Below, in pieces: positions 228 to 20,891 of a DNA stretch of 64,000 nt. This stretch comes from a bacterium. Its GTDB lineage: Bacteria > JAMCPX01. Under the pieces are notes generated by a model. The model did not search any database, was not told where the DNA came from, and worked only from the letters and a program-made list of their open reading frames with translations. Numbering within the stretch: the stretch's first letter is position 1; every line of letters begins with the position of its first letter. The stretch is taken from positions 1 to 64,000 of the forward strand of contig JAJYLN010000003.1 of NCBI GenBank assembly GCA_021787665.1. Direction: 5' to 3'. The position numbers were made by a program, and so were the translations under genes.

Positions 228-938
228 TTATGACGGCCCCATCCGCTTGAGCCTCTCGATGAGCCTCTCCTTGTGGAGCAGGGCGAGCAGTTGGGAGGTG
301 GGATAAATCGCGGATCGCGCAAGCTGGACTATCTGCTCCGGCGTAAGCTTACCGAGGACCCGCTTGTTGAACAGTCTGAACTCCTTCTCTATCAGGTCAT
401 CGCAGCTCTTCGTGTAGAGTCTCAAGTGTTGGATGGAGAAGCCGTGGCGTTCGCTCAACCCTGCCTCCCGCATCTTCGCTATGAGGGAAAGGACCTGCGC
501 GTCCTCCTCCGAGTAGCCGGCATCGTCCTTCGACGTGTGGAGAACGCCGGCCCGGACAAGCTGTGAGAAGGTCCTGGAGCCGATGGGATACTTCCTGAGG
601 AGTTCCTTCCTGCTGTAGACTTTCTCGCTGTCGAAGTCCTCGAGGATCCTGTGGTCTATGCTCCTCAGTTCGGTGCCCGCGGAGGCGCTCAGGACCTTTC
701 TGATGACGCTGAGGGGCAGGAACCGCTTCCCCTGAAGGTCCTTGACCCTCGTGATGAGCCCGATGCACGCCGGCGCGTAGTACGCCATCTGCTTGTTCTT
801 CTTCATCGGTCGCGGCAGCAGTCCCATCCTGACGTAATGGTGCACCGTGGCTTTCGTGATGCCCGTTTTCCTGATAAGCTCACCCACCGTCAGCCAGCCC
901 GGGGGTTTGCTTTTCGTAGGGGACTTCCTCTGAATCAT
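228..938 (-). CDS. MerR-family transcriptional regulator
   Basis: A 236-residue predicted DNA-binding protein. A MerR-type winged helix is visible near residues 14-55, with a 'TVGELIRKTG' recognition region and the 'VHHYVRMGLLP' turn typical of the family. A second region from about residue 108 ('SRKELLRKYPIG') looks like another HTH-like repeat. No effector-binding cysteine cluster is visible. The ATG at 938 overlaps the TGA of the upstream aldehyde dehydrogenase gene in an ATGA arrangement, so it is translationally coupled and is the last gene of the long catabolic operon. I infer that it is a local regulator of that operon. Its own target site is unknown, though the palindrome at 11250-11270 is a candidate. 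Confidence 0.8.
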   Translation of the reverse strand: MIQRKSPTKSKPPGWLTVGELIRKTGITKATVHHYVRMGLLPRPMKKNKQMAYYAPACIGLITRVKDLQGKRFLPLSVIRKVLSASAGTELRSIDHRILEDFDSEKVYSRKELLRKYPIGSRTFSQLVRAGVLHTSKDDAGYSEEDAQVLSLIAKMREAGLSERHGFSIQHLRLYTKSCDDLIEKEFRLFNKRVLGKLTPEQIVQLARSAIYPTSQLLALLHKERLIERLKRMGPS

Positions 939-2422
939 GAGAGGTCTACATACACGTTCTTCAGGGTCATGAAGGACTCCATGGCCTCCTTGCCGCCCTC
1001 CTTGCCGAAGCCGGACTGCTTCATCCCCCCGAACGGTATGGTGTGCGGCAGGAGTGAGTATGTGTTTATCCAGACCTGCCCCGCCTTTATCTGGCGTGCG
1101 AGCCGGTGGGCGCGGGAAATATCTCTCGTAAAGACGCCCGCGGCAAGCCCATAAGCCGTATCGTTCGCTCGCTGCACGGCCTCTTCCTCCGTCGAGAAGG
1201 GCGTGACGATGGCCACCGGCCCGAAGATCTCTTCCCTGGCCGTGCGGCACGACAGGGGCATGTCCGTGAACACGGTAGGCCCGAAGAAGTTGCCGTCCCT
1301 GAGATCGCCCTGGGCGGCGCCGGTGCCGTCTAGGACGCACCTGCCGTACTTCTTCCCCTCCTCGACGTACGAGGCGACCCTGCCGAGGTGCGCCTTCGAG
1401 ATGAGCGGGCCGATCAGCGTTGTCTGGTCTGCCGGATCTCCCAGCTTCATCGTCTGCACGAAGGCCGAGAACTTCTGGACGAAGTCCCCGTACACGGCCG
1501 TCTCCACGAAGATCCTCGAGCATGCTATGCACATCTGTCCGGACAGCCCGAAGACGCCGTATGCGGCCATCATGACGGCTTTGTCGATGTCCGCGTCGCT
1601 GAAGATCACGAGCGGAGACTTCCCGCCGAGCTCCAGGGAGACCTTCTTCAGGTTGGATGAGGCCTGTGCCATGATCTTCTTCCCGATCTCCGTGCCTCCG
1701 GTGAACGATATGCCGTCTATGCCGGGGTGCGATGCCATGGAGGCTCCCGTCTCAGGCGATCCGGTTACGACGCTGACGAGGCCTTTGGGTATGCCGGCCT
1801 CGCCGAGTATCTCGGCAAGACGCAGCGCCGGGAGCGGAGCTTTTTCCGAAGGCTTTATGATGACCGCGTTTCCGGCAGCGAGCGCCGGTGCGACTTTCGA
1901 GCCTATGAACAGGGTAGGGGTATTCCACGACGTGATCGCGGCGATGCACCCGAGCGGCTCCTTCATCGTATAGTCTATCGAAGGGAAGCTCCCGGTCAGG
2001 GGCACGACCTCGCCGTAGATCCGCTCGATCCAGTTCGCAAAGTATTCGAAGCTCTTCGACAGGGCAGCGGAAGAGAACCGCTTTGCCAGGGTGAAGGGGG
2101 CGCCGACATTCATGCTCTCGAGACCCGCGAAGTCTTCCTCGTACCGGTCGCACAATGCGGAGATCTTCAGGAGGACGCCTTTCCTCTTTGCAATGGACAT
2201 GCCCTGCCACACCGGGAGTGCCTCCCGTGCCGCCCTCACAGCATCGTCGATGTCCTGCTCAGTGGCCTGCGGCACACGCGCGATGGTCCTGTTGTTCGAC
2301 GGGTCGATGACCTCGAAGTACCTGCCCGTACCTGGTTCTCTGAACTCGCCGTTGATAAAGAGCCTGTAGCTCTTCTTCTCCCCGAGCCCGAGCTTTTTGT
2401 ATTGTTCGTTATGATCGATCAT
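935..2422 (-). CDS. Aldehyde dehydrogenase (NAD(P)+-dependent)
   Basis: A 495-residue protein, the usual length for the aldehyde dehydrogenase superfamily, which oxidises aldehydes to carboxylic acids in the cytosol. The general-base glutamate is seen in 'SLELGGK' (about E264) and the nucleophilic cysteine in 'SGQMCIA' (about C298). The active-site 'SWNTP' and cofactor-binding 'TGGTEIGKKI' segments are also present. An AGAGGAG ribosome site precedes the ATG. It lies 15 bp after the enoyl-CoA-hydratase-like gene and overlaps the MerR gene by 4 bp. In context it may convert an aldehyde to the acid that the adjacent acyl-CoA synthetase activates. Substrate specificity cannot be read from the sequence. 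Confidence 0.92.
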   Translation of the reverse strand: MIDHNEQYKKLGLGEKKSYRLFINGEFREPGTGRYFEVIDPSNNRTIARVPQATEQDIDDAVRAAREALPVWQGMSIAKRKGVLLKISALCDRYEEDFAGLESMNVGAPFTLAKRFSSAALSKSFEYFANWIERIYGEVVPLTGSFPSIDYTMKEPLGCIAAITSWNTPTLFIGSKVAPALAAGNAVIIKPSEKAPLPALRLAEILGEAGIPKGLVSVVTGSPETGASMASHPGIDGISFTGGTEIGKKIMAQASSNLKKVSLELGGKSPLVIFSDADIDKAVMMAAYGVFGLSGQMCIACSRIFVETAVYGDFVQKFSAFVQTMKLGDPADQTTLIGPLISKAHLGRVASYVEEGKKYGRCVLDGTGAAQGDLRDGNFFGPTVFTDMPLSCRTAREEIFGPVAIVTPFSTEEEAVQRANDTAYGLAAGVFTRDISRAHRLARQIKAGQVWINTYSLLPHTIPFGGMKQSGFGKEGGKEAMESFMTLKNVYVDLS

Positions 2423-2436
2423 ACGCTCCTCTCTGA

Positions 2437-3237
2437 CTACTCCCCTTTGAACTGGGGCTTGCGCTTCTCAAAGAACGCCTTGATGCCCTCGGTCGCGTCC
2501 CCCATCTGCGCACACAGCGCCTGCGCCGTGGCCTCGGACTCGATACTCATGTCCGGATGGAAGTCGAGCCCCTTGTATACCGCCTTCTTCGCGAGCTTGA
2601 CCACATAGGGTGCGGAGAGCGCTATGGTGTCCGCCATGGCCTGCGCCTCTGCCTGGAGCTCCGCCAGGGGCACGACCTTCTCTACCAGGCCGATTCGCTC
2701 CGCTTCCTGCGCCTCCACCATCCTCCCGGTGAAGAGGAGATCGCACGCCCTGCCCCTGCCGATCAGCCGCGGCAGCATGTAGGTAATGGCCATACCGGGA
2801 TGAATACCGATCGTGGCGAAGTTCGCGGCGAACTTCGCGCTGTCGGCGGCGATCCTGATGTCACAGCACAGAGCGAGTCCGAGCCCACCACCTATCGCGT
2901 AGCCGTTCACCGCAGCGATCGTCGGGATATCGAGCTGGAGGCTCTCCAGGAACGCATCGTACATCCCCCTGATCCCCTCGCGCGTGCCCGCCACGCCGGT
3001 AAGACCGGAGCCCTGGACAAGCTCGGTCAGTGCCGAGAGATCGGCGCCCGCACAGAACGCCTTCCCGCTTCCGGTAATGACGAGCGCCCTCAGTCCGGCA
3101 CTCTTTTTGATGTCCAGAACCGCTTCGTGGAACTCCCGGAGAAGCGCGGATGTCATCACGTTCCTCCGGTCAGGCAGGTTAAAGGTGATCTTCGCTACCT
3201 GCCCCGTCTTTTCGTAAAGAATGGTCTCATACGCCAT
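2437..3237 (-). CDS. Enoyl-CoA hydratase/isomerase family protein (crotonase fold)
   Basis: A 266-residue crotonase-superfamily protein. The oxyanion-hole segments are recognisable ('AFCAGADLS' and 'NGYAIGGGLGLA'). Compared with classical hydratases, the segment 'FATIGIHPGMAITY' lacks the first catalytic glutamate, and the second glutamate position falls on an aspartate in 'RACDLLFTG'. It may therefore act as an isomerase, hydrolase or other crotonase-type enzyme rather than a hydratase; this is my alignment by eye. Its 5' end overlaps the 3' end of the acyl-CoA synthetase gene by 11 bp, and the aldehyde dehydrogenase follows closely, so it is inside the operon. The family is certain and the exact reaction is not. 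Confidence 0.85.
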   Translation of the reverse strand: MAYETILYEKTGQVAKITFNLPDRRNVMTSALLREFHEAVLDIKKSAGLRALVITGSGKAFCAGADLSALTELVQGSGLTGVAGTREGIRGMYDAFLESLQLDIPTIAAVNGYAIGGGLGLALCCDIRIAADSAKFAANFATIGIHPGMAITYMLPRLIGRGRACDLLFTGRMVEAQEAERIGLVEKVVPLAELQAEAQAMADTIALSAPYVVKLAKKAVYKGLDFHPDMSIESEATAQALCAQMGDATEGIKAFFEKRKPQFKGE

Positions 3238-4774
3238 GGTTACCTCCGTCCGGCCTTTTGTTCGTTACACGGTCCCGCAATTCCCTCTTCAGTACCTTGC
3301 CGACCGCGTTCTTCGGCAGCTCGGACATAAAGTGGTATTGTCTCGGGACTTTATAATCCGCAAGCTTCCCCAACAGGAACGTCCTGAGCTCTTCCTCCGT
3401 GGGCTCCCGCCCCTCTTTCGCGACGATGAAGGCAACGCAGTCCTCAATGAGTACCGGGTGCGGTACGCCGACCACCGCAACTTCTTTTACAGACGGGTGC
3501 TGAAACAGGGCGTCCTCCACCTCGAGGGAGGATATCTTGTACCCTCCGCGGTTGATGACGTCCTTTTTCCTGTCCACGAGGTAGAGATAGCCGTCGCCGT
3601 CCACGTATCCGATGTCGCCGGTCCTTACCCAGCCCTCCGTATCCCAGACCTGCTGGGTTGCTGCATCGTCCTTGTAGTATCTCCTCCTGGTGCGCAGGTC
3701 CCTGGATCGGAGCAGGATCTCGCCCGGCTGTCCGGGGGGCAGTGCATTGCCGCGCTCGTCGAGAATCCGTATTTCTGTGTTCTCGTCCACCGGCTTGCCC
3801 ACGGAGTTCGGCCTCGACCGCGCCTCGCCGAAGGGCATCATATACCCGGCCGCGCCGGACTCCGTCAGGCCGTACAGATTGATGACGTTCGCCTGCGTGA
3901 ACAGGTCGGACAGCTCCAGCACGGCAGACGGCGGCATGGGCGCGGCGCCGAACTGAAGGAATAGGAGGTTCGAGAAGTCCCGCTTCTTCAGGTCGGGCAC
4001 CTCTTTCAGCACGATCAGCCACATGGACGAGACCGCGTATACGGAGAACACTTGCTCCTTCTCCAGGAGATCTGCGAACCGGTGCGCATCGAACCGCTTC
4101 ATGAGGATGCACTTCATGCCCAGCCGCAGCGGAAGGACGGTCATCGTCATGCCAGCAAAGGTGTAGAGGGGGACCGGATGCAGCGCTGTCCGCCCGGAAA
4201 ACAACTGGACCCATGGCGTCTCGTCGAAGGAGGTGATGGCATGGTGCGTTACCATGACCCCTTTCGGTATTCCGGTGGTGCCGGAGGTATAGATGAGCTC
4301 GGCCGGGTCGTCTTCATTGACCTGGACTTCCGGATCACTGCCGGAAAGTCCTCCGAGCATCTCCTTCACCCGTGAGAGCGTAAGAACCTTTGCCCGGCCC
4401 GCCGCCCCGGCGTCCCCGGCGATCCCCCAGCCCCTGAGGAGCCCGTCCTCTGCCAGCAGGAAGGACGTGTCGGAATGCGTGAGCTGCTTTTCTACCTCCT
4501 CCCGGGAATACCGGACATTGACCGGTACGAACACGCCGCCTGCCTTCTGTGTACCGAAGTACGATGCGATGTAGTATATGCCCTCTGCGTTCGGGATCGC
4601 ACAGGAAACCTTGTCCTGCTTTTTCAGTCCCTCTTTCAGCAGCAGGTTCGCGATCTTCGAGGACAGGACGTCGAGCTCTTTGAAGGTCCTCCGCTCACCG
4701 TCTTCTATCTGGACCGCCGTGTTGTCCGGGAACTCCCTTGCCCTGCTTCGCAGCAGGTCCGGAATGATGGTCAT
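3227..4774 (-). CDS. Acyl-CoA synthetase (AMP-forming)
   Basis: A 515-residue ANL-superfamily adenylate-forming ligase that would activate a carboxylic acid to its CoA thioester through an acyl-AMP. The P-loop-like motif 'YTSGTTGIPKG' is present near residue 163, followed by 'NLYGLTESGA', 'GWVRTGDIGYV' and 'DRKKDVINRGGYKIS'. The C-terminal catalytic lysine is in 'PKNAVGKVLKREL'. Length is normal. The gene starts 10 bp after the acyl-CoA dehydrogenase gene and overlaps the downstream crotonase gene. It probably supplies the CoA substrate for the two acyl-CoA dehydrogenases and the hydratase-like protein of the operon. The chain length or ring structure of the acid is unknown. Confidence 0.92.
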   Translation of the reverse strand: MTIIPDLLRSRAREFPDNTAVQIEDGERRTFKELDVLSSKIANLLLKEGLKKQDKVSCAIPNAEGIYYIASYFGTQKAGGVFVPVNVRYSREEVEKQLTHSDTSFLLAEDGLLRGWGIAGDAGAAGRAKVLTLSRVKEMLGGLSGSDPEVQVNEDDPAELIYTSGTTGIPKGVMVTHHAITSFDETPWVQLFSGRTALHPVPLYTFAGMTMTVLPLRLGMKCILMKRFDAHRFADLLEKEQVFSVYAVSSMWLIVLKEVPDLKKRDFSNLLFLQFGAAPMPPSAVLELSDLFTQANVINLYGLTESGAAGYMMPFGEARSRPNSVGKPVDENTEIRILDERGNALPPGQPGEILLRSRDLRTRRRYYKDDAATQQVWDTEGWVRTGDIGYVDGDGYLYLVDRKKDVINRGGYKISSLEVEDALFQHPSVKEVAVVGVPHPVLIEDCVAFIVAKEGREPTEEELRTFLLGKLADYKVPRQYHFMSELPKNAVGKVLKRELRDRVTNKRPDGGNHGV

Positions 4775-4783
4775 AGCAACCGC

Positions 4784-5998
4784 TCAAGCATCGTCGCGCG
4801 GGTAATCCGCTATCCTTCGCGCAATGACGACCCTCTGTATCTGCCCGGTGCCCTCGACCAGGTCGATGGCCTTTACGTCCCTGAACAGCTTCTCCACGAA
4901 ATAGTCGTTCCTGACTCCGGCGTCGGCCATGATATCTATGCACAGGGATATCGCGTCAAGGCTCGCCGCAGGACAATACGCCTTTGCCTGGGACGCCTCG
5001 AGCGTGTTCGGTTGATCCGTGTCCGCCAGCCACGCAGCCTTCCAGCACAGGAGCCTGCCGATGTCGATCTTCCTCTTTATCGTGACGATGTGTTCCTTTA
5101 TCTTCTGATAACGCGGTACCGGCCGGTCAAGGTCGTAGTTTTCTTTCACGAACTCCTGCATGCGGTCCCACGCAGCCCGGCCTATGCCCACGGCCATGCT
5201 CGCGATGATCGGACGCGTCGCGTCGAAGGACTTCATCGCACCTTTGAAGCCGGCCCTCCCCTTATAGTATTCCTCACCGCCGAGCAGGTTTCCGGCAGGC
5301 ACGGTGCAGTTGTCCATGAACACGGTACATGACGCGTAGGCAGACAGCCCCATCTTATGCTCCCTCTTCGACACGTCAAGCCCCGGCGTCCCTCTCTCGA
5401 CGACAAAAGCCCGGTGCCCTTCCCTGCCGAGGGCTTTATCGATGGTCGCCCACATGACGATCCACGACGCCTTGTCTGCGTTCGAGCAGAATGCCTTGTC
5501 CCCGTTCAACACCCACGAGTCTCCGTGCTTCTCGCACCGTGTCGCTATCCGTGCCACGTCGGAGCCGGCACCCGCTTCCGTCATGCCGAACGCGCCCCAC
5601 ACGGGCTTCTCCCGCGTCTGGAATATGGAGAGGAACCTTTTTTTCTGCTCGTCGGTACCCATGATACTGATCGGCGGACCGCCGAGTCCCGGTCCGGGCA
5701 TGGAAACCGCCACGCCCCGGTCCCAGTATGCCAGCTCCTCGCCGAGCAGTACGCCGAGTCGTGCGGCGGTCCTCTCTTTTTTCTCTGTACCGTCCTTTTT
5801 TGACGGGCCCCCACCCTCGATGGCAGTCCGCGCCTGTAGTCCCAGTTCCGCGCATTTATAATAGAAGGGATTGTCAGCAGGCAGAGGCTGTTTCTTCCGG
5901 TCCGCTTCTATGCCGAGCGGCCTCAGGTATTCCTTACCCAGCCACTTCAACATCTCCAGAAGGGTCCTGGCATCATCGGGTATCTCAAGATCTATCAT
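4784..5998 (-). CDS. Acyl-CoA dehydrogenase, catalytic-type subunit
   Basis: A 404-residue flavoprotein of the acyl-CoA dehydrogenase family, predicted to form a 2,3-double bond in an acyl-CoA. The middle-domain motif 'GMTEAGAGSDVA' contacts substrate and FAD. The C-terminal 'VEGTGQIQR' carries a glutamate (about E382) at the position of the catalytic base of short/medium-chain enzymes. The N-terminal helical region includes an insertion rich in Lys/Glu near residues 65-75. It starts on ATG with an upstream purine-rich site. It follows a second, degenerate acyl-CoA dehydrogenase gene after a 164-bp spacer and precedes the synthetase by 9 bp. A heteromeric enzyme with that partner is plausible, as known for mycobacterial FadE pairs. 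Confidence 0.9.
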   Translation of the reverse strand: MIDLEIPDDARTLLEMLKWLGKEYLRPLGIEADRKKQPLPADNPFYYKCAELGLQARTAIEGGGPSKKDGTEKKERTAARLGVLLGEELAYWDRGVAVSMPGPGLGGPPISIMGTDEQKKRFLSIFQTREKPVWGAFGMTEAGAGSDVARIATRCEKHGDSWVLNGDKAFCSNADKASWIVMWATIDKALGREGHRAFVVERGTPGLDVSKREHKMGLSAYASCTVFMDNCTVPAGNLLGGEEYYKGRAGFKGAMKSFDATRPIIASMAVGIGRAAWDRMQEFVKENYDLDRPVPRYQKIKEHIVTIKRKIDIGRLLCWKAAWLADTDQPNTLEASQAKAYCPAASLDAISLCIDIMADAGVRNDYFVEKLFRDVKAIDLVEGTGQIQRVVIARRIADYPRDDA

Positions 5999-6162: not shown

Positions 6163-7215
6163 TTAAGCGAATCCCCAGTCCCTGATGGTACGCTCGAGGT
6201 CGAGCTGAGCAGCGTCCTTGCCTCCCAGCAGGGTGGGAAGGGTCCTCGCCTCCCGCATCCATTTCTCCACCGGATAGTCGCTCACATAGCCGTGTCCGCC
6301 GAGGAGCTGCACGCCGTAGACCGTGACAAACGAAGAGCATTCCTGTGCCTGGAGCAGTGCCTGCGAACCGGCGGAAAATCCATCGCCTTTCGACAGCTCA
6401 TAGGCGCCTTTCCAGATGGAGGCCCTGGTGGCCTCGATCGCTATGGACATATCGGCAAGAATGAATGCTATCGCCTGATGGTGCGCGACCTTTTTCCCGA
6501 AGGTTATCCTCTCTTTCGTGTAACCGAGCGCGTACTGGTACGACGCGGCCGCCACGCCGAGCATGCACGATGCCATATAAAGCCTCATGCTTGCGATCAT
6601 CTTCCGGTAGCTCTCCTCTGAAAGCTCTTCCACGATCACGGGCTTTCCGTTTATTTTGACTTCACAGGCGCCTGCCGCATGCAGGGCACACGGCAGGACA
6701 GGGGTGGAGGCAATGCCGTCCTCGATACAAAAGACCCGCCTGCCCTGCAGGACGATGAGCAGTGACGGCTTATGACTCGGCAGGTAGTGTATGACGCCGG
6801 AGAGAACACCTTTTTCGAGCTTGATCTGTTCGTCCGTATCCACGAACACGGCAGGCTCGAACCCGTCGGCCGCCTGCTTGAACCGGGCGAGCAGAGGGGC
6901 CGCGCCGGCATGTTTCAGCGCGAGCAGGGGATAGAGTGAGAACCCGGCCCTGTCCATGCTCAGGAGCGTGGACACGCACCCGCGGGAAAGCTGCTCAAGC
7001 ACCACGGTCTTGACGAAGAACGGGAGCCCCTGCCCCCCGAGTTCCACAGGCCAGTCCAGGTTCAGGAAGCCCAGCTCCTTGTAGTTCCCGTACAGGGATG
7101 CAGGGACGCCCTCTTTCTCGAACTTCCGGGCATCGTCGTACAGGGACTTGCTGAACTTCTCCGCCTCGTTCCTGATCATGGTCTCGTCTTCGCTCAGGGC
7201 AAAACTGATAGCCAT
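6163..7215 (-). CDS. Acyl-CoA dehydrogenase-like protein, degenerate partner subunit
   Basis: A 350-residue protein with the overall acyl-CoA dehydrogenase architecture: N-terminal helices 'ISFALSEDETMIRNEAE', 'NLDWPVELGGQGLP', and a C-terminal helical bundle 'YTKERITFGKKVAHHQAIAF' with 'QLLGGHGYVSDYPVEKW'. The central beta domain is short and lacks the usual MTEPxAGSD-type motif. The C-terminal catalytic EGT is replaced by 'TLLGGKDAAQ'. The arginine of the FAD-binding 'ERITFG' segment is kept. The start at 7215 has an AAAGGAGGT site and leaves one base after the preceding gene's stop codon. Loss of catalytic residues next to a canonical paralogue resembles the non-catalytic half of alpha2beta2 FadE complexes. 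That role is an inference. Confidence 0.82.
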   Translation of the reverse strand: MAISFALSEDETMIRNEAEKFSKSLYDDARKFEKEGVPASLYGNYKELGFLNLDWPVELGGQGLPFFVKTVVLEQLSRGCVSTLLSMDRAGFSLYPLLALKHAGAAPLLARFKQAADGFEPAVFVDTDEQIKLEKGVLSGVIHYLPSHKPSLLIVLQGRRVFCIEDGIASTPVLPCALHAAGACEVKINGKPVIVEELSEESYRKMIASMRLYMASCMLGVAAASYQYALGYTKERITFGKKVAHHQAIAFILADMSIAIEATRASIWKGAYELSKGDGFSAGSQALLQAQECSSFVTVYGVQLLGGHGYVSDYPVEKWMREARTLPTLLGGKDAAQLDLERTIRDWGFA

Positions 7216-7216
7216 A

Positions 7217-7546
7217 TCATGCAACCTCCTTTTCCTTTCTCTTTCGAAAGATCCCGGCAACCATATAAAACGAATACTTTATGAAGAACACAGACAGGAG
7301 CATGCCCGCCTTCAGCATGATGCGCCATTTCGCAGGCTTCAACAGGTAGCCGATGATGACGGGGTGGAACGCCGTCTCCAGAAATTCGGTCCAGTCGTCC
7401 GTGTCCATCGTTATCGTATAACGCCAGGACAGCGGGGGCTTCACCATGCCGGAGAGCAGGACGACGTCGTCCGCTACTTTGACTTCCTCGCTGCCTATAT
7501 CGATGGCCATGCTTCTCTTGCCCAGCCCTGTCGACCAAAATTCCAT
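7217..7546 (-). CDS. Small conserved-operon protein B, unknown function
   Basis: A 109-residue protein that I do not recognise. The N-terminal half is predicted beta-rich ('EEVKVADDVVLLSGMV', 'SWRYTITMDTDDW'). The C-terminal half has a hydrophobic stretch around residues 80-97 ('KAGMLLSVFFIKYSFYMV') followed by a basic tail, suggesting membrane association. It begins immediately after the stop of the upstream small gene and ends one base before the degenerate acyl-CoA dehydrogenase. By eye it is a paralogue of that upstream protein: both share the order acidic strand, 'LxG', 'WxY', 'DxxxF', then a hydrophobic helix. The pair may form a heterodimer serving the neighbouring flavoenzymes. Confidence 0.75.
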   Translation of the reverse strand: MEFWSTGLGKRSMAIDIGSEEVKVADDVVLLSGMVKPPLSWRYTITMDTDDWTEFLETAFHPVIIGYLLKPAKWRIMLKAGMLLSVFFIKYSFYMVAGIFRKRKEKEVA

Positions 7547-7882
7547 TTATGCTTCCTTGTTCGATTCTTCCGGGAGCGCGTTCTTCTGAACGCGCGCTAT
7601 CCCCAGGAAATGCGCGAGCGTCCTGAGGACCCTTTTCAGCACGACGAGGAATATGCCCGGTCCGCACCGCTGTGCGAGGTAAGCCACGATCGTATCGTCC
7701 TTTGCAAGGGCGACGAAGTTGATGATGTCCGCGTCCTCCAGCCTCATCCTGTACGTCCAGTGTACCTTCTTTTCCTTAATGGCACCGTGAAGCCAGATCT
7801 CGCCCTTCTCTTCCCTGATGTCGGCCTCCCTGAGCCTGAACGGCAGGGTGACCGACCCCAACCCTTTCGATGCTAATTTCAT
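7547..7882 (-). CDS. Small conserved-operon protein A, unknown function
   Basis: A 111-residue protein of unknown function. The chosen ATG at 7882 overlaps the TGA of the upstream FAD-oxidoreductase gene in an ATGA arrangement. The sequence begins 'MKLASKGLGSVTLPF', continues with strands 'GEIWLHGAIKEKKVHWTYRM' and 'DADIINFVALAKDDTIVAYL', then a hydrophobic helix 'GIFLVVLKRVLRTLAHFLG' and a polar tail. Its pattern parallels the next small gene, so the two look like diverged tandem duplicates. No catalytic motif or metal ligand cluster is visible. Tight coupling on both sides argues that it is real and functionally tied to the flavoenzymes. Confidence 0.75.
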   Translation of the reverse strand: MKLASKGLGSVTLPFRLREADIREEKGEIWLHGAIKEKKVHWTYRMRLEDADIINFVALAKDDTIVAYLAQRCGPGIFLVVLKRVLRTLAHFLGIARVQKNALPEESNKEA

Positions 7883-18514: not shown

Positions 18515-20836
18515 TCACTTCAGGACGATGTCGTCGAGAAAGAACACTATCCTCTGGTCCCACGGTATGTCGGATGTTCGGGCGTCCACGTAGAACATCG
18601 GCGTAACAGTGGTTCCGGAGACCGGGACTGCCACGGTAGACCATGCGTACGCCGGCAGGTTAGACGGCAGGGGAGCGTCGTACACGGTCGTGCTACCGCT
18701 CAGCAGCCGCAGATGCACATAGTCTGTCGCGCTCCTGTACGCGCCGGACGGCGTGTACACCAGGTCCGGGTACACGTGAAACGAGAGCGTACTGGCACCG
18801 TTCAGGGTCAGGGAGGTGTTCATGCCCAGCACCACCGTCGCGTTCGCGGGCAGACCTGACTGCAGGGCAAGACTGTTCAGCGTGAAGGCGATCATGAGTG
18901 ACTGCGAGCCTGAGTCCCTGATAGCTGAGACCGGTATGGCTACACCGCTTCCCACGGTCGTGTCAGGGTTCGGAAAGGTGTCCGGCATGTTATTCGTAAA
19001 GCACCCCGGGTCCTCGATGTCCATACAGGACCGTGTGTTGCCCAGAGACGCGGTTATCGTGAAGCCCGAGAGCGTACTGACGTCGCTGCGGAGGTCCCCC
19101 TGTCCGATGGCCTGCACGCCGAACCACCAGGTGCCCTGCGGCAGGGTGAAGGGAAGCGTGTATCCGGTCGCGCTGAGGCCGCTGAACCGCAGGGTTAACC
19201 TGTCCGGCATGGTCCTGAACGGTGAAACGAAGACGTTGTAGCCGACAGCCCCATCGACAGGGGCCCAGCCCAGCTCAACCGTGTCGTCTGCGCGTGTTGA
19301 CTCCGTGATTACGCCGGGAGGCGCCAGTGTCGGAGCATCGAGCTGATCGAGCCCCTCCATCAGAGACCGCACGGTGTTTGCCATACCGTCGAGCACCGTG
19401 GTATAGGCCTCGTCTTTAATATTCACCAGGCCGTAGTTACTGTTCTCTCCGTCGAATCTGCCGGTTGCCGGCTCGTCGGCCCATTCGAACCAGTGGAAAC
19501 CAACCATGAATGTGATGCCGTCGACCTTGATGCCGAGCAGCCTCCGGAGGTCGTCGTCGTAGAACTGCGCCCTCTCGTTCTGCGTCTGCACGTTCCAGCC
19601 GGCACCCCGCGTATCCGGCAGACCGGCATCGTCAGCCCTCGTCCCAAATTCCGATTGGATGAAGGGCTTTCCATAGGTATTGTCCGTCATACTGAGGGCG
19701 AAGAACCGCGCCCACCTCTTTTCCGGGTCGCCGAGTATCAGGTTGGACGTCGGGTTGTCGAGCGCATAGTAGTCGTTCACGCTGATGACGTCGCAGTACT
19801 TCGACGCCGCCACGATCACCTGGTCTGGCGCATCCGATGCGAACCGCGCACACAGGTTAAGGTGGTTCGGGTCGACCGACTTCAGTGCATCGTCCGTTAC
19901 CGAGAAGTACGTGCTCGCTATGTCGGAGAGGAAGGCCTGCTTGTCGGCCTGCCGCTGCGGGTACGATGTGCTGTTCGGCAGCTTCGTCGTATCGAGGACC
20001 CCGGTCCAGCTCGCGAAGGACGTTCCGTAGAGCTGGTTCAGCCTGTCGAGGCTGTAGCCCCGCTCCTTTTGCAAAAAGACGTCGACCCAATATTGCTTGC
20101 CCGCGGACGTGGACGGCAGACCGATATAGTCGTCAGCGAGCGTGTAGTCCGGGTTGTAGATGATCTGCGCACCGCCGAACCATGAGAGCTCGTTGTCGAT
20201 GAAGTACCCTATGAGCCAGGGGTCTGCTATCGTGCCCTGCCCGATGACGTCCTGTGCGTAGGCATAGGCGTTCTCGGCGAACCGAGGGTCGAACACATCC
20301 GGGAAGTCCGAGGAGAAGCCGTGGCTTACGGCAGGGCAATCATTGGCGCCGAACCCGCCCTCTACCGCACCGACAAAGCCCAGGGTAAAGGTGTACGGGA
20401 TGGAGTCATGGAACACGGTGAGTCCGTCCTCAGACCAGTTGCCCAGCGTGTTGAACCCGATCTTCCCGTATCTGCCGATGACCTCCTGCACCCACTGCTG
20501 CAGTGCGTACCGGGAAAAATTCGAAGGGAAGAGGGACAGCAGGTTATGGGTGTACTCGGAGAAGCCGAACAGGGGCACGTCATCCGCTGAGAAACTGACG
20601 TGGTTCACACCCAGTGACAGGAACGCATGGTTATCCGGATCCACGAGCACCCACCTGTTATGGATAAGCTCTGTCCTGAAGAAGCCGGACGTATTGTCCC
20701 CGGACACGCCGGTCAGTCCGCCGTATCTATCGAACTGGATAGGCAGGGCAGGGCTGGCCGACTGGCTGCGTAAGCAGCCGGCGACCGAGACGGCCGCCAC
20801 GCATGCGAGAAGCAATGCCCTTCTTTTCAACTCCAT
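18515..20836 (-). CDS. Lipoprotein glycoside hydrolase, GH50/agarase-like, with C-terminal accessory domains
   Basis: From the ATG at 20836 the protein has 773 residues. It begins with a lipoprotein signal (basic 'ELKRRALLLA', lipobox 'SVAGC' with Cys21), so it is probably anchored in an outer or inner membrane leaflet. Residues about 50-510 form a clan-A TIM-barrel hydrolase domain. The putative acid/base is E216 in 'GYFIDNELSW' and the putative nucleophile is E396 in 'IQSEFGTR', the pattern of GH50 beta-agarase-like enzymes. A fibronectin-III-like module near 520-590 and a beta-rich C-terminal domain that may bind carbohydrate follow. The natural polysaccharide is unknown. It is flanked by mobile-element remnants, suggesting lateral acquisition. 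Confidence 0.72.
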   Translation of the reverse strand: MELKRRALLLACVAAVSVAGCLRSQSASPALPIQFDRYGGLTGVSGDNTSGFFRTELIHNRWVLVDPDNHAFLSLGVNHVSFSADDVPLFGFSEYTHNLLSLFPSNFSRYALQQWVQEVIGRYGKIGFNTLGNWSEDGLTVFHDSIPYTFTLGFVGAVEGGFGANDCPAVSHGFSSDFPDVFDPRFAENAYAYAQDVIGQGTIADPWLIGYFIDNELSWFGGAQIIYNPDYTLADDYIGLPSTSAGKQYWVDVFLQKERGYSLDRLNQLYGTSFASWTGVLDTTKLPNSTSYPQRQADKQAFLSDIASTYFSVTDDALKSVDPNHLNLCARFASDAPDQVIVAASKYCDVISVNDYYALDNPTSNLILGDPEKRWARFFALSMTDNTYGKPFIQSEFGTRADDAGLPDTRGAGWNVQTQNERAQFYDDDLRRLLGIKVDGITFMVGFHWFEWADEPATGRFDGENSNYGLVNIKDEAYTTVLDGMANTVRSLMEGLDQLDAPTLAPPGVITESTRADDTVELGWAPVDGAVGYNVFVSPFRTMPDRLTLRFSGLSATGYTLPFTLPQGTWWFGVQAIGQGDLRSDVSTLSGFTITASLGNTRSCMDIEDPGCFTNNMPDTFPNPDTTVGSGVAIPVSAIRDSGSQSLMIAFTLNSLALQSGLPANATVVLGMNTSLTLNGASTLSFHVYPDLVYTPSGAYRSATDYVHLRLLSGSTTVYDAPLPSNLPAYAWSTVAVPVSGTTVTPMFYVDARTSDIPWDQRIVFFLDDIVLK

Positions 20837-20891
20837 GCCGGTCCCTTTTCCCCGTAATGAACCTACGTACAACACCGGCGGGCATTTTACA

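Follow-up and report, generated by a model that had tools for sequence, protein, structure and literature searches.

Two paired small proteins beside a CtmAB-like flavoprotein pair: an undescribed family with a possible role in hydrophobic substrate presentation

Described flavoprotein pairs and the present locus

CtmAB and the delta24-steroid desaturase (delta24-SD) oxidise allylic C-H bonds without O2, and the available parts of the two reports describe each as an adjacent, weakly similar flavoprotein pair with a covalent-flavin His motif (PMC4109377, PMC11061730). Our literature search found two biochemically described enzymes in this flavoprotein class, limonene dehydrogenase and delta24-SD. 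In Castellaniella defragrans 65Phen, the ctmABCDEFG operon has neighbouring genes for two paralogous flavoproteins that resemble phytoene dehydrogenase and share 27% identity, and the second flavoprotein gene is directly followed by two hypothetical genes, ctmC and ctmD (PMC4109377). Their products, CtmC (CDM25288) and CtmD (CDM25287), were ORFans with no meaningful database match in 2014 (PMC4109377). The delta24-SD of Sterolibacterium denitrificans, also a heteromeric flavoprotein pair, catalyses a desaturation, not a hydroxylation; the available text of its description presents an alpha/beta enzyme and mentions no small proteins (PMC11061730).

The window analysed here is a stretch of 64,000 nucleotides from a bacterial contig (JAJYLN010000003.1). 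On its minus strand, two flavoprotein genes, P5 (9564..11204, 546 aa) and P3 (7879..9507, 542 aa), are followed by two small genes, A (7547..7882, 111 aa) and B (7217..7546, 109 aa). Both small open reading frames are present as the original prediction had described them, and so is the gap-free coupling that it had proposed: P3 and A overlap by 4 bp, A and B are 0 bp apart, and 1 bp separates B from the ATG (7215) of the next gene. A and B are translationally coupled to the upstream flavoprotein and to the downstream acyl-CoA dehydrogenase. The operon continues on the same strand with a short acyl-CoA dehydrogenase lacking a middle-domain match (6163..7215, 350 aa), a full-length acyl-CoA dehydrogenase (4784..5998, 404 aa), an AMP-binding acyl-CoA synthetase (CoA ligase; 3227..4774, 515 aa), an enoyl-CoA hydratase/isomerase (2437..3237, 266 aa), an aldehyde dehydrogenase (935..2422, 495 aa) and, as the last gene, a MerR-type regulator (228..938, start codon taken from the translation). 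In Candidatus Binatus (L035), the gene immediately upstream of this module encodes a homolog of the regulator (38% over 190 aa).

The short acyl-CoA dehydrogenase had been called degenerate. Its position next to the full-length enzyme and its IpdE2-like match rather resemble heteromeric steroid-type acyl-CoA dehydrogenases, of which it is probably the second subunit, with the full-length protein as its probable partner. Elsewhere in the window, a 786-aa open reading frame (18518-20875) has no Pfam match at E <= 1e-5.

The ctm operon and the window operon share the two genes directly following the second flavoprotein gene as well as the downstream aldehyde dehydrogenase, CoA ligase and hydratase, whereas ctmEF, encoding a 2Fe-2S ferredoxin and a ferredoxin reductase, have no adjacent counterparts in the window operon (PMC4109377, available part). 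As a system, the arrangement is a version of one already known: the ctm-type operon has two uncharacterised genes at the position of A and B. CtmC and CtmD, whose genes correspond to A and B in position, are expected to be their homologs.

P5 and P3 are adjacent paralogs, 24% identical to each other, and the same pairing recurs in related loci. Both carry a covalent-flavin His motif (AGFKMNYHA in P3, AGVPVDTHA in P5), the His being common to the wider homolog set. In the available text, the delta24-SD motif is given as G-F-L/R-X-N/S-T/L-H-A, to which GFKMNYHA of P3 corresponds and of which GVPVDTHA of P5 is a version with substitutions (PMC11061730). From gene order, this motif and the literature, P5/P3 appear to fit the class of CtmAB and delta24-SD; by position and motif, P5 would be the CtmA- or alpha-like subunit and its partner P3 the CtmB- or beta-like one. 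The probable targets of the enzymes accompanying A and B are thus terpene- and steroid-like oils, which they would attack without oxygen. The neighbouring enzyme had been called phytoene-desaturase-like. This is right as to the superfamily, which the window enzymes have in common with beta-carotene ketolase CrtO and phytoene desaturase CrtI, but the protein appears to be half of a CtmAB/delta24-desaturase-type pair and not of the carotenoid type. P3 scores 148.3 bits against a curated NCBIfam cut-off of 1000 for CrtO and 86.6 bits against 238.1 for the CrtI family, hence both identities were rejected, as was a role in carotenoid biosynthesis, the window flavoproteins falling far under the curated cut-offs. 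Recognition of the A/B pair may stop the annotation of such flavoproteins as carotenoid desaturases.

A and B as paralogs of one family

A and B align by BLASTP with 23% identity over 69 aa (E 8e-6). Their Smith-Waterman score of 66 was reached by 0 of 2,000 shuffles (mean 25.2, s.d. 4.3, maximum 48), and alignment of the two family profiles with hhalign gave a probability of 98.3 (E 2e-14). The mutual similarity first noticed in the sequence is therefore significant, and A and B are, by these comparisons, homologous paralogs of one family, representing subfamilies A and B.

Across 46 sequences, S5, G7, L8, G9, G33 and W41 are conserved in 100%, K6 and D51 in 98%, Y43 in 96% and W4 in 93%, while F55 is found in 85% of the family sequences. 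The core motif consists of S-x-GLG, G33, W41, Y43 and D51, its strongest element being the N-terminal WSKGLG. The LxG, WxY and DxxxF pattern of the original prediction coincides with the family-wide G33, W41, Y43, D51 and F55, but WSKGLG was overlooked, probably because the W is replaced by A in window protein A (MKLASKGLG) and the K by T in window protein B (MEFWSTGLG). Pairs carrying WSKGLG could serve as a metagenome marker for oxygen-independent terpene and steroid degradation. The family alignment contains no conserved Cys or His.

Neither A nor B matches a Pfam or NCBIfam family. When the 46 members were scanned singly against both libraries, only isolated matches were returned (E > 0.03), none of them credible, and the family profile matched no PDB sequence. 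Among the same 46 members, there was no Pfam match to SdhE-type flavinylation factors at E <= 0.1 and no sequence match to the COMM domain. A literature search found no published description. In the libraries searched the family is thus undescribed and unnamed, which agrees with the earlier remark that no known family could be recognised.

The model of B (pLDDT 89) consists of five short predicted strands and then helices, of which two are short and the last extends from residue 71 to 108. Two natural A-B fusions (299 aa in L039, 281 aa in L045) suggest a 1:1 complex. Each half of the L045 fusion model (pLDDT 84, pTM 0.76) broadly repeats the succession of elements seen in B, and the model is consistent with an A-B heterodimer, a proposal of the original prediction that gains support from the fusions and from this confident model. 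Foldseek found no PDB match at E <= 0.001 for either model. The best VIA-align Z scores, 4.1 for B and 3.4 for the fusion, lie within background; COMMD chains (Z 3.1-3.7, about 60 aligned residues) are not above it, and neither these nor the lipocalin/PUR-like matches were relied on.

A 19-residue hydrophobic stretch of at least KD 1.6 is present in 19 of the 47 tabulated proteins, both window proteins included. The remaining 28 lie below this value, their helices being more polar than a classical transmembrane segment would allow. Since most relatives fall under the transmembrane threshold that both window proteins exceed, the helix is just as likely to be monotopic or docked on a protein as to span the membrane. 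Membrane contact, which had also been predicted, is supported by the long hydrophobic C-terminal helix and is plausible.

Distribution and genomic settings

P3 was used as the query in an ortholog search of 386 genomes. The closest P3 orthologs are accompanied by both small proteins, which are about 30-40% identical to those of the window. In six genomes the small proteins matched strongly, and precisely these six also gave the best P3 matches (E <= ~1e-115). Another nine, in which the P3 homologs are weaker, yielded no small protein; in one of the nine (G094), the contig ends just past the flavoprotein gene. Flavoprotein homologs thus exist in genomes without a small protein, suggesting that the helper is not universally required.

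A second survey, with a profile of B against a species-genome collection, identified 23 loci labelled Nitrospirae, Binatus, Myxococcota, Deltaproteobacteria, Calescibacterium, HR19, Acidimicrobiia and Dehalococcoidales. The family spans at least six phyla. Two copies are present in all but two loci, one cut at a contig end (L049) and one with masked bases upstream (L050). The order P5-P3-A-B is found in Binatota, Myxococcota, Calescibacterium, HR19 and metagenome-assembled genomes labelled Nitrospirae and Deltaproteobacteria. P5-P3 can also be followed by one of the A-B fusions (L039, L045). In a flanked layout, seen in Deltaproteobacteria, Myxococcota and Acidimicrobiia, one small gene stands on each side of the P5-like and P3-like genes. 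One pair, on a 7.5-kb contig (L054), is accompanied by neither a flavoprotein nor a molybdoenzyme and adjoins an acyl-CoA dehydrogenase and a BadH-like dehydrogenase. A, B, P3 and P5 show correlated distances over ten loci (r 0.81-0.92, Mantel p 0.0005). The pair and its flavoprotein module are thus kept in other phyla, and the suggestion that the window holds an undescribed paired component is borne out by an unnamed family, a significant pairwise match and a conserved setting.

None of the eight further genomes from the window's own family contains the module, a pattern consistent with horizontal transfer. A search of viral contigs found nothing, and a plasmid search returned only two distant P3 homologs (about 30%). 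Downstream of the flanked layout, a 150-aa and a 339-aa protein with no Pfam match (L047:11471-11920 and L047:13507-14523) recur in several loci, where they cluster with APH-like, SnoaL-like, SDR and luciferase-like genes. The alpha-like flavoprotein of the flanked layout carries Cys in place of His (PGVKVNLCA; L041-L044, L046-L048, L051-L053, L055), while its beta partner retains the His; the flavin linkage of this alpha-like protein is possibly different, or there may be none.

Searching the genomes of the family loci revealed a third subfamily, III, a single-copy form (M+LKS+GLGRKELVMDFREY). It stands next to a flavoprotein pair in five of the loci retrieved, that of L105 being 55-58% identical to P5 and P3. 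Two flavoprotein pairs enclose a single-copy small gene in L108 and L031, so both enzymes may share its product. In three other loci (L107:5783-10302, L111:5803-10602 and L112:956-5580), subfamily III is part of a DMSO-reductase type II molybdoenzyme gene row with no flavoprotein beside it. In L111, the molybdoenzyme comprises alpha, beta (above cut-off) and gamma-like subunits, and its best equivalog-level match is ethylbenzene dehydrogenase (EBDH). Ethylbenzene and steroid C25-C26 dehydrogenases resemble the family's other hosts in hydroxylating hydrocarbons without O2, and operons of this type encode subfamily III; they are nevertheless unrelated molybdenum enzymes, and the window operon has no such gene. 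The presence of subfamily III in EBDH-like operons without a flavoprotein suggests that the common factor is the hydrophobic substrate, not the cofactor.

Possible roles of the A-B pair

The reading that we prefer, with somewhat less than even confidence, is that A and B form a membrane-touching heterodimeric accessory subunit, which presents a hydrophobic substrate to the oxidase or docks the oxidase. The heterodimer would serve the two-subunit flavoprotein P5-P3, which, without O2, would oxidise an isoprenoid insoluble in water (a terpene or a steroid side chain) at an allylic carbon. A and B would pack against each other through their N-terminal beta-sheets, and their long hydrophobic C-terminal helices would be embedded in the inner membrane or rest on its surface; in this way the dimer would give the soluble flavoprotein a docking site there and hand the substrate over to it. 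The other enzymes of the operon (aldehyde dehydrogenase, CoA ligase, acyl-CoA dehydrogenases, hydratase) would then process the product. Such a role is favoured because the settings share, as inferred from their enzyme families, the O2-independent oxidation of a water-insoluble hydrocarbon and subsequent CoA-ester degradation, and no single cofactor. Since the pair travels with such oxidases across many phyla, it is likely to be a missing working part of these enzymes. Several observations were counted against substrate presentation: the flavoproteins without a small protein, the polar helices of most relatives, the SKGLG motif and G/W/Y/D residues, which are not obviously lipid-binding, the failure to detect CtmC and CtmD in proteomes (PMC4109377, available part) and the enrichment of delta24-SD from soluble extract as two subunits of ~60 kDa (PMC11061730, available part).

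The last of these points also suits an alternative in which A and B are maturation or assembly chaperones, for example for covalent flavin attachment in an SdhE-like role, one per flavoprotein and released from the mature enzyme, given that the available text describes purified delta24-SD as alpha/beta only (PMC11061730). Two small genes for two flavoprotein genes, the flanked layout with one small gene beside each flavoprotein gene, and the covalent-flavin His in both window flavoproteins point the same way. However, related flavoproteins from genomes in which no small protein was matched (L010-L017, L021, L023-L026) also have the His, and the alpha-like subunit of the flanked layout has Cys instead, both of which argue against a general flavinylation factor; subfamily III lies in molybdenum enzyme operons with no flavoprotein beside it, and no assembly factor was matched in Pfam. 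A general flavinylation factor is weakened by this, while a narrower maturation role would be compatible with the His-motif survey. Taken as a whole, chaperones rank second and seem rather unlikely.

Less likely still, A and B could be electron-transfer docking subunits anchoring the reduced flavoprotein at the membrane and passing electrons to the quinone pool or to an ETF or ferredoxin partner. The hydrophobic C-terminal helices would suit this function, the physiological acceptor of delta24-SD is not known according to the available text (PMC11061730), and flavin and molybdenum oxidases must both discharge electrons; yet the family lacks cofactor ligands, having no conserved Cys or His, and EBDH-type operons already contain FeS and heme-type subunits. 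That the pair is merely co-transcribed and functionally independent, as a regulatory or envelope protein, is very improbable in view of the adjacency conserved across phyla, the coordinated divergence of A, B, P3 and P5 and the exact coincidence with the best P3 homologs among the 386 genomes.

As a conserved partner of such flavoproteins, the pair is a concrete target for deletion or co-expression. A broader proposal, which we regard as doubtful, is that the family provides a substrate-presentation heterodimer common to two chemically unrelated classes of O2-independent hydrocarbon hydroxylases, flavin (CtmAB-like) and molybdenum (EBDH- and S25DH-like). It would then be a general feeder of membrane-dissolved isoprenoids to soluble C-H oxidases, with a fold new to solved structures. 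In L027, a DMSO-reductase type II alpha gene (313-3396) lies about 2.5 kb from the flavoprotein module, so the two kinds of hydrocarbon hydroxylase, flavin and molybdenum, can be encoded close to each other.
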